Position numbers and translations under genes: made by a program
Shown here: positions 1-5,270 of the stretch, in pieces
Layout: each line of letters begins with the position of its first letter
Numbering within the stretch: the stretch's first letter is position 1
The notes under the pieces: model-generated
Told to the model about the DNA's origin: nothing
Databases searched by the model: none
Seen by the model: only the letters and a program-made list of their open reading frames with translations
DNA from: Alphaproteobacteria bacterium
GTDB lineage: Bacteria > Pseudomonadota > Gammaproteobacteria > Burkholderiales > Burkholderiaceae_C
Reading direction: 5' to 3'
DNA: 64,000 nt
Assembly (NCBI GenBank): GCA_030054175.1
Contig: JASGCM010000015.1
Location: forward strand, 1 to 64,000

Positions 1-131
1 TTGTGTTGCCAGCCCTTGTGCGGACCTCCCTGTTGGTTGGACTGGCTGATTTCCCTGCTGCCCCCCCCCCCCCCCCCGCAGGCCGTCAGTGTGGCTGCAA
101 CCATGCCCAGCAAAACTTGTCTTCGTTGCAA
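1..131 (-). CDS. Putative lipoprotein, N-terminal part only (gene runs off the left edge)
   Basis: Reverse-strand translation from TTG at 131: MQRRQVLLGMVAATLTAC-GGGGGG-SREISQSNQQGGPHKGWQH. RR plus hydrophobic core plus lipobox LTAC; SD-like GGGAG 7 nt upstream of the TTG. Frame open to the window edge. Confidence 0.55.
   Translation of the reverse strand, partial: MQRRQVLLGMVAATLTACGGGGGGSREISQSNQQGGPHKGWQH
61..77. repeat. 17-bp C homopolymer (G17 on the coding strand of the putative lipoprotein)
   Basis: Direct count of uninterrupted C at 61-77. Confidence 0.95.
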
Positions 132-202
132 TTTCCACTCCCGATGACTGCGGAACCGCTATAGCCCATCGCCCACGGCGCTATGTGCGCTTGGGTTCAC
201 TC

Positions 203-315: not shown

Positions 316-1767
316 TCAGGCGACGCGGCAGATCTTGAGCATATTGGTACCGCCCGGCGAACCCATGGGCTCGCCGCAGGTGATGGCGTAGATGTCCCCC
401 GAGCGAACCACGCCACGCCGTTTCAGGTCTTCCTCGGCCTGTCGCAAGGCGGTATCTCGGTCGTTACTGGACTCCATCAGCAAAGGGCGCACATTGCGGT
501 ACAGCGCCATCTTGCGCTGGGTCGACAGCTTGCTGGTCAGTGCATAAATGGGAATATGGATGCGGTGACGACTCATCCACAAGGCGGTTGAGCCCGACTC
601 GGTCATGGCCACCAGCGCCTTGGCCCCCAGGTGATGGGCCGTGAACAGCGCACCAATGGCGATGGTTTGGTCGATGCGACTGAATTGTCGCCCAGTGAAA
701 TCGGCGTCCAACTCAACCCGCTCGGCCGCTTCAGCGGCCGCGCAAATGGCGACCATTTCGCGCACGGTTTCCAAGGGGTATTTACCGGCGGCAGTCTCGG
801 CACTGGTCATGACCGCGTCGGTGCCGTCAAGAACGGCATTGGCGACATCGCTCACCTCGGCACGGGTGGGCACCGGGTTGTTGATCATGCTCTCCATCAT
901 CTGGGTGGCGGTGATGGTGACCTTGTCGTATTCGTGCGCCAAGCGAATCATGTGCTTTTGCAACGCCGGCACGGCGGCATTGCCGACCTCAATGGCCAAG
1001 TCACCACGCGCGACCATGATCCCATCGCTGGCCTTCAATATCTCTTCCAGGTGTGGAATGGCCTCGGCGCGCTCGATCTTGGCGATCAAGCCGGGTCGGT
1101 GCTTGTATTCGGCACCCGCCACATTGGCCAATTGGCGCGCGAGCTCCATGTCGGTGGCGTTTTTCGGAAAACTGATGGCCAAATAATCGGCCTGAAATGC
1201 CATGGCGACCTTGATGTCCTCCATGTCCTTGGCGGTCAGAGCCGGCGCCGTCAACCCGCCACCCTTTTTGTTGATGCCTTTGTTATTCGACAGGTCACCC
1301 CCTACCTTGACCACGGTATGCACTTGTTCACCGGATACGCGCGCGACTTCAAGAACGATCAGGCCGTCATTGAGCAACAAGACATCGCCGGGCACCACAT
1401 CACGTGGCAACTCTTTGTAATCCAAACCCACACCTTGCTCGTCACCGGACTCAGTGCGTTGGGCATCGAGCACGAAGGGTTGCCCCGCCTGCAAAGTCAC
1501 CTTGCCCTGGGCAAACTTGCCAACTCGGATTTTGGGTCCCTGCAAGTCGGCCATGATGGCGACCTCACGACCCGCACGCTGCGCGGCCTCGCGCACCAAG
1601 CGGGCCCGATCAATGTGGTCTTGGGCTGTGCCATGGCTGAAATTCAAACGCACCACATTCACACCAGATCGGATCATTTCCTCGAGCAACTGTGGGGCAC
1701 TGGAGGCAGGCCCCAGCGTGACGACGATTTTGGTGGAGCGGCGGGCGACGGGTGTAGTGGTCTTCAT
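316..1767 (-). CDS. pyk: Pyruvate kinase
   Basis: TKIVVTLGPAS, NFSHG, ADLQGPKIR, MVARGDLAIEVG, ATQMMESM motifs. Confidence 0.97.
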   Translation of the reverse strand: MKTTTPVARRSTKIVVTLGPASSAPQLLEEMIRSGVNVVRLNFSHGTAQDHIDRARLVREAAQRAGREVAIMADLQGPKIRVGKFAQGKVTLQAGQPFVLDAQRTESGDEQGVGLDYKELPRDVVPGDVLLLNDGLIVLEVARVSGEQVHTVVKVGGDLSNNKGINKKGGGLTAPALTAKDMEDIKVAMAFQADYLAISFPKNATDMELARQLANVAGAEYKHRPGLIAKIERAEAIPHLEEILKASDGIMVARGDLAIEVGNAAVPALQKHMIRLAHEYDKVTITATQMMESMINNPVPTRAEVSDVANAVLDGTDAVMTSAETAAGKYPLETVREMVAICAAAEAAERVELDADFTGRQFSRIDQTIAIGALFTAHHLGAKALVAMTESGSTALWMSRHRIHIPIYALTSKLSTQRKMALYRNVRPLLMESSNDRDTALRQAEEDLKRRGVVRSGDIYAITCGEPMGSPGGTNMLKICRVA

Positions 1768-1891
1768 GACGCTCATTCTCACATGTGGCGTTGATTTGGC
1801 AAGTATCGTAATTATTCACCAATCAGTACTCGATGCCGAATTATGAGTATAAAAATAGCACAATGATGTGGTAATCCATTTGGAGAAGACC

Positions 1892-3759: not shown

Positions 3760-4705
3760 GCGCCATGCTCAGCTTGCGCCGATAACGGGATACCAATTCG
3801 GCCTGTGGGTCTTGCTGAGCAACGGTTTTCCCGGCGATTTCGATGCCCGAACCGGCCTTCTTGTCTGTCGGGTCCGGCTTCGGGGCCGGCGGAGTCAACA
3901 ATTCAAGAATGGCGATGTAGATTTTGCGCGGCAGCCCGTCTGACCAGGCTTTGTCTCGCATGATGATTTCCAACAACTCGTCCATCGAGGCCTCATATTG
4001 ACCAGCGGCCAGCAACAGGCGGGCTTTGGCCAGACGGGTATCGAAATCCCGCTTGTTGGCCGCTAAGGCAGCATCGAACTGATCCAAGGTCCATTGGCCG
4101 CGCTCGTCAGTGGTGGCAAATTGCAAAGCCTGTAACCAGTGCATCAAGGCTTCAAAACGCAGTTGACGTGGGATTTGGGCCAAGGCCGGTGCCAACGCTG
4201 TTTCAGCCGTTTCCAACTCGCCTAGAGTGATGAGCAGCTTGACATAATCGAAGCGAGCATCGTCGTTGGCCGGGTTGATGGCCAACGCCTCTTGTAGCTT
4301 GGCCAGTGCGGCCTCGTGATCCCCTTGGGCCATCAAATCCTCGGCCTCGGCGGTCTCGGCCTCGGCAATCAACTCACCTTCCGAGGGCAGGTGCTTGTCG
4401 AGGAATTCGCGCAATTGACCTTCGGGCTGTGCCCCCATGAAACCATCGACCGGACGACCGCCCACCATCAGGACACAGGTGGGGATGCTGCGGATGCCAA
4501 AGGCTGAGGCCAATTGCTGCTGGTCGTCGGAGTTGATTTTGGCCAGCTTGAAACGCCCGCCGTATTCGGCCTCAAGGCGCTCGAGCACGGGGCCGAGCGA
4601 TTTGCACGGGCCACACCAGGGCGCCCAAAAATCGACCAGCACAGGGGTGGTCATCGAGGTGTTGACCACCTCGGCTTCAAAATTCTCAATGGTCACATCC
4701 AACAT
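3752..4705 (-). CDS. Thioredoxin-domain/TPR co-chaperone, YbbN/CnoX-like
   Basis: N-terminal Trx fold with WAPWCGPCKSLGP, then a TPR-like region. Confidence 0.88.
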   Translation of the reverse strand: MLDVTIENFEAEVVNTSMTTPVLVDFWAPWCGPCKSLGPVLERLEAEYGGRFKLAKINSDDQQQLASAFGIRSIPTCVLMVGGRPVDGFMGAQPEGQLREFLDKHLPSEGELIAEAETAEAEDLMAQGDHEAALAKLQEALAINPANDDARFDYVKLLITLGELETAETALAPALAQIPRQLRFEALMHWLQALQFATTDERGQWTLDQFDAALAANKRDFDTRLAKARLLLAAGQYEASMDELLEIIMRDKAWSDGLPRKIYIAILELLTPPAPKPDPTDKKAGSGIEIAGKTVAQQDPQAELVSRYRRKLSMALN

Positions 4706-4772
4706 GCTTGATCACTCCACCCAAAAACAGCCCAAAGGCTAAAATGGAAGCATAACCGACCCAGCAGTCCAA

Positions 4773-5270
4773 ATGACATCACCTATTGTGGGCGTGGTCA
4801 TGGGCTCCCAATCCGATTGGGACACCCTGCAGCACGCCACCCAGATCCTTCAAGATTTCTGTATCCCGCACGAAACCCGAGTGGTTTCGGCCCACCGCAT
4901 GCCCGATGAGATGTTCCGCTATGCCGAAACCGCCCTGGAGCGGGGCTTGCGCTGCATCATTGCCGGGGCAGGTGGCGCGGCCCATTTGCCGGGCATGTTG
5001 GCGGCCAAGACACCGGTGCCGGTGCTGGGCGTTCCAGTCGCCAGCCGCCATCTGCAGGGGGTCGACTCATTGCACAGCATTGTTCAAATGCCCAAGGGCA
5101 TCCCGGTGGCCACCTTCGCCATCGGCGCCGCTGGCGCGGCCAATGCTGCCCTGTTCGCTGTCGCCATGCTGGCACACGACCATCCCGATTGGGCGCGACG
5201 ACTGACCGAGTTCCGTCTGGCGCAGACCGATCAGGCTCGTGCCATGCGTGTGCCACCCGCCGCCCCATGA
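4773..5270 (+). CDS. purE: N5-carboxyaminoimidazole ribonucleotide mutase
   Basis: GVVMGSQSDWDTL, VVSAHRMPDEM, AGAGGAAHLPGM. Confidence 0.96.
   Translation: MTSPIVGVVMGSQSDWDTLQHATQILQDFCIPHETRVVSAHRMPDEMFRYAETALERGLRCIIAGAGGAAHLPGMLAAKTPVPVLGVPVASRHLQGVDSLHSIVQMPKGIPVATFAIGAAGAANAALFAVAMLAHDHPDWARRLTEFRLAQTDQARAMRVPPAAP

Follow-up and report, generated by a model that had tools for sequence, protein, structure and literature searches.

Gene organization at the contig end

The stretch of DNA analysed here (the window) covers positions 1-64000 of contig C36, which belongs to a 3.10-Mb draft genome (G000) in 39 contigs, and the window's first base is the end of that contig. At this end the minus strand carries the beginning of a putative lipoprotein gene behind the gene for pyruvate kinase, with the following features in reading direction:

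316-1782, minus strand: pyk, pyruvate kinase, the upstream neighbour in the same direction (PF00224, 369.5 bits; PF02887, 116.3 bits)
138-142, minus strand: GGGAG, possible ribosome-binding site, 6 nt before the TTG (sequence, by inspection)
78-131, minus strand: lipoprotein signal peptide LQRRQVLLGMVAATLTAC with TTG start at 131 and lipobox LTAC (translation; lipobox by inspection and pattern)
61-77, minus strand: G17 homopolymer, the poly-Gly linker directly 3' of the lipobox Cys (sequence; assembled length unreliable)
1-60, minus strand: contig-end sequence past the tract, start of an NHL domain, probably with read errors (counterpart of bases 49-105 of contig C5)

Translation from the TTG at 131-129 gives LQRRQVLLGMVAATLTAC, with Met at the start, followed by six Gly codons made up of the G17 tract (a C17 run at 61-77 of the plus strand) and the next C. 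By inspection, LQRRQVLLGMVAATLTAC has a charged start, a hydrophobic stretch and a lipobox ending in Cys, and is thus predicted to be a lipoprotein signal; lipidation and a membrane or surface location are likewise predictions. The initial annotation of this DNA, which had placed a poly-G tract directly behind a lipobox Cys on the minus strand, was confirmed in this point, as was the presence of GGGAG upstream of the TTG, although the spacing is 6 nt and not the 7 nt given there. No recognisable promoter and no convincing terminator were found at the lipoprotein locus.

The tract is longer than chance would produce, its exact length being uncertain: runs of 17 C or G are expected about 1e-4 times or fewer in 64 kb of such composition, and the second-longest C or G run within the 64-kb window has 7 nt. 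In the whole G000 genome there are seven C or G runs of at least 11, the two longest being the run of 17 in the window and a run of 47 at the start of contig C5. Folding with quadruplex terms predicts a G-quadruplex in the tract (-57.7 kcal/mol, vs -19.8 kcal/mol without them), a prediction expected of any such run, which says only that polymerases may stall there. Loss of mismatch repair was considered as the cause of the G run and was discarded, since mutS and mutL are present.

Probable continuation of the gene on contig C5

C36 stops 60 nt past the tract, and a probable continuation of the gene was located at the start of C5, which opens with C47-GCACTGACTCCTGCCAGTCCAACCTACTGGGAGGTCAGCACATGGGCTGGCAACACAAGTGCC. 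Bases 60-105 of C5 match the reverse complement of window bases 1-46 (91%, E 5.5e-11), so that after its C47 the contig carries the same sequence as the left end of the window, at matching distance (within 3 nt). Reading on, C5 encodes ALTPASPTYWEVSTWAGNTSADGLGISDYTDAVGTAAQFNLPTGIALDPSGNLWVADSQNHLIRRITPKFC and a stop, that is, a single NHL repeat (PF01436, 34.7 bits against a curated cut-off of 20), followed by the gene for fructose-bisphosphate aldolase (fba) and, identified by sequence inspection, purC and pgk. As assembled, the gene stops after a single repeat and does not make up a propeller of several NHL repeats, although an unassembled gap may hold further ones. The GC content at third codon positions (GC3) is 0.63 in the NHL part and 0.74 in pyk and fba.

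That the two contigs are joined at this place is suggested by gene order in relatives. In the 30 pyk loci that scored best (that of G000 and those of 29 relatives), an automatic script found a pyk-to-fba distance of 37-106 bp in 13 cases, and printed frames placed fba directly after pyk in four more; the spacing in the remaining loci was not resolved by the script. As pyk and fba are adjacent in relatives and G000 has a single fba, located on C5, C36 and C5 should be neighbours, and the order across the join should be pyk, lipoprotein gene, fba, purC. If the contigs overlap in their shared sequence, the pyk-fba interval measures 238 + n + 312 nt, n being the number of G in the tract. None of the genus relatives checked among these loci showed an NHL gene in the pyk-fba interval; in one genome of the same genus (G015) an NHL lipoprotein gene lies beside the purC of a pyk-fba-purC cluster. 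A DNA search with the lipoprotein locus gave no match in 40 relatives, all of them different species and not strains.

Sequence differences beside the tract

In an ungapped comparison of window bases 1-57 (reverse complement) with C5, 10 of the 57 sites differ. Every one of the seven affected codons carries a missense change (Trp to Arg twice, Tyr to Asn once). First codon positions hold six of the ten changes and third positions two, and the changes cluster towards the tract (permutation p 0.006). Such an all-missense pattern is unlike divergence under selection, although by itself it does not prove read errors, because a random substitution in this region is missense 75% of the time. The differences most likely represent read errors in low-quality sequence past the homopolymer, and the assembled tract length is consequently unreliable.

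The homopolymer itself is in conflict between the contigs, as the run consists of C on the coding strand of C5 and of G on that of C36, so a sequencing artefact is needed to reconcile both. On two-colour instruments, persistent signal loss leads to poly-G up to the read end (PMC13218037), and the C47 of C5 fits signal loss called as G in reads entering the tract from the other side, provided that two-colour sequencing was used. The initial annotation had named an assembly artefact as an outcome that would speak against the tract, and this caveat applies in part, given that the contig ends 60 nt beyond it and that C5 opens with a run of the opposite base at the same place.

Tract length and reading frame

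The consequences of a change in tract length were derived by placing the C5 sequence behind a tract of n G, which presumes the C36-C5 join. With n = 1 mod 3 (16, 19, 22) the NHL frame is open and a lipoprotein of 94-96 aa results. With n = 0 mod 3 the product is poly-Gly-His-stop, of 24-26 aa, and with n = 2 mod 3, the class into which the assembled length of 17 falls, translation stops at 50-52 aa (50 residues for G17 itself). Provided that C36 and C5 join, therefore, a length change alters the product, and the G homopolymer behind the lipoprotein signal does set the downstream reading frame, as had been proposed.

Other parts of that proposal have to be revised. The G17 frame (SREISQSNQQ...), which had been taken as the coding frame, is an off frame, since coding on C5 needs n = 1 mod 3. 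All frames are indeed open to the window edge, but as this edge is a contig end the open stretch covers only about 20 codons; the two non-coding frames stop soon on C5. The ranking of frames by GC3 that had favoured the G17 frame was reproduced (0.74, 0.58 and 0.45), but carries no weight with 19-20 codons of probably erroneous sequence. Retargeting to alternative mature proteins through tract changes is not supported, as the other frames end at 24-26 or 50-52 residues; with both ending early, the effect of slippage would be on/off.

NHL lipoproteins in related genomes

Lipoproteins with a lipobox Cys, poly-Gly and NHL repeats are common in the genus, mostly of about 350-700 aa with several repeats, and in the homologues, too, the NHL repeat stands directly behind the lipobox Cys and the poly-Gly. 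Those of relatives in the genus and the family (e.g., L176, L052, and L048) share signal peptide, lipobox Cys, poly-Gly and NHL repeat with the proposed C36/C5 gene and differ from it in their mixed Gly codons and, mostly, in having several repeats, whereas the C36/C5 gene has a homopolymer and one repeat. Mixed codons are the norm for post-lipobox poly-Gly in relatives, in agreement with the initial annotation: the longest G run within these linkers is 8 and most are 2, and linkers with as many as 11 Gly in mixed codons were assembled without trouble (L062).

There is a precedent for a product with one repeat: in another genus, genome G373 encodes an 87-aa NHL lipoprotein with an intact frame, a signal peptide and poly-Gly (L199:4528-4791). 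This protein resembles the product of the C36/C5 gene in its signal peptide, poly-Gly, single NHL repeat and stop, and differs from it in having mixed Gly codons and no homopolymer and in adjoining a full-length sibling. The two G373 genes, on its contig C10, form a tandem of 371-aa and 87-aa NHL lipoproteins (L199:2975-4090 and 4528-4791) with near-identical signal peptides.

A candidate phase-variable lipoprotein

Based on the evidence described above, it can be hypothesized that the pyk-fba interval contains one small NHL lipoprotein gene whose G-tract linker acts as a slippage on/off switch and at whose tract the assembly broke, an account to which we give roughly even chances. The gene would comprise a signal peptide, a poly-Gly linker encoded by a G homopolymer and a single NHL repeat, some 95 residues in total; the draft assembly would have broken at the tract, leaving the gene's 5' part on C36, with the 3' part now at the head of C5. 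Slipped-strand mispairing during replication would change the tract length and move the NHL domain in or out of frame, so that cells with n = 1 mod 3 would be on and make the NHL domain, and those with n = 0 or 2 mod 3 would be off through an early stop; the real tract length would then vary within a population. Judged from its sequence, phase variation at the G run of an NHL lipoprotein gene is plausible as a candidate switch. More tentatively, the poly-Gly linker turned into a G homopolymer may itself be the switch, a true on/off device at the lipid-anchor junction of a minimal one-repeat NHL lipoprotein. The absence of the gene from the pyk-fba site in the relatives checked was counted against the proposal, and so were the lack of a recognisable promoter, the opposite bases of the run on the two contigs and the single NHL repeat, which alone is not a full propeller.

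Comparable systems have been described in Bordetella, where homopolymeric C/G tracts form contingency loci, e.g., at bvgS, fim3, tcfA, and bapC (Gogol 2007, PMC1891110), and where tracts of 9-35 nt show polymorphism between species as well as between strains (PMC1891110). Judging by gene order, the source genome probably belongs to the same order as Bordetella. As in those loci, a C/G homopolymer of beyond-chance length is found in or at a gene for a cell-envelope or exported protein, and a tract within the gene shifts the frame. The Bordetella loci involve different genes, whereas the tract described here sits at the lipid-anchor junction, and their variation has been measured in strains and cultures, whereas the C36/C5 tract is known from one assembly only. 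The C36/C5 lipoprotein is ordinary in kind and unusual in placement, and plausible as a phase-variable candidate.

Three other explanations were weighed. The gene could be in decay, being what is left of a longer NHL lipoprotein after the loss of all repeats but one, with neutral growth of the G run and no function in switching. This reading, which we consider somewhat unlikely, would account for the single repeat before the stop where most homologues have several, for the failure of any relative checked in the genus to keep a gene at this site and for a GC3 in the NHL part below that of pyk and fba; it is opposed by the intact NHL frame with its conserved motif (34.7 bits) and by the intact one-repeat lipoprotein with a signal peptide in G373. 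An artefact of sequencing or assembly, in which the true linker is shorter or has mixed Gly codons and low-signal base calls were filled with G, is improbable. It would be in line with the position of the tract, which adjoins error-like sequence and is 60 nt away from a contig end, with the proximity of most runs of at least 14 in related assemblies to contig ends (within about 110 nt), with the poly-G that two-colour signal loss yields (PMC13218037) and with the mixed codons in the poly-Gly of all relatives. Against it, unique sequence flanks the run on both sides in C36, and assembly failed here from both directions, although mixed-codon linkers with as many as 11 Gly were assembled in relatives (L062). 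A tandem of two NHL lipoprotein genes, of which the first starts on C36 and the last ends on C5, with a separate tract in each and real divergence between them, would have a parallel in the G373 pair with its near-identical signal peptides and is very unlikely in view of the uniformly missense changes (two of them Trp to Arg), mostly at codon position 1 and clustered at the tract, and of the lack of a second close NHL match in G000.

Returning to the slippage switch, if the tract is real and varying, common poly-Gly lipoprotein linkers can become frame switches, outside well-studied pathogens. Since assemblies break at such loci, these readily escape notice, and the locus also serves as a warning that, in draft genomes, a reading frame may be wrong if it adjoins a long G run at the end of a contig.

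Other homopolymers in the genome, genus and family

In loci fetched from genomes of the genus and family, G or C runs of at least 14 are mostly found no more than about 110 nt from the end of a contig, suggesting that assemblies commonly break at such runs; in 84 genomes of the genus, those of the other interior runs of at least 11 that were read are 11-13 long. Of the interior runs in the fetched loci, the longest is a G20 in a family genome (G326:C1:371557, L233), far from a contig end. Outward poly-G at contig ends was considered as a general proof of signal loss and rejected, since the orientations are mixed and prove nothing in general.

TGC or TGT with at least 11 G directly behind it occurs at 52 places in 401 family genomes, and none of the 30 of these loci that were fetched, including the C5 locus of G000 itself, has a lipobox with a signal peptide at the site. 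The pattern is about twice as frequent as the same pattern read backwards, and lipoproteins are not the cause.

Within G000, an in-frame G11 was observed in two opposite-orientation copies of one coding sequence, about 259 kb apart (C34:18330 and C34:277313; L037 and L038), which contains an EEGGGGGAREM-like stretch and is of M20-type amidohydrolase character by inspection. A C13 run (C35:16395-16407, L034) separates a gene end from the probable ribosome-binding site of the gene that follows, which by inspection is nitronate monooxygenase-like, and may represent a spacing switch.
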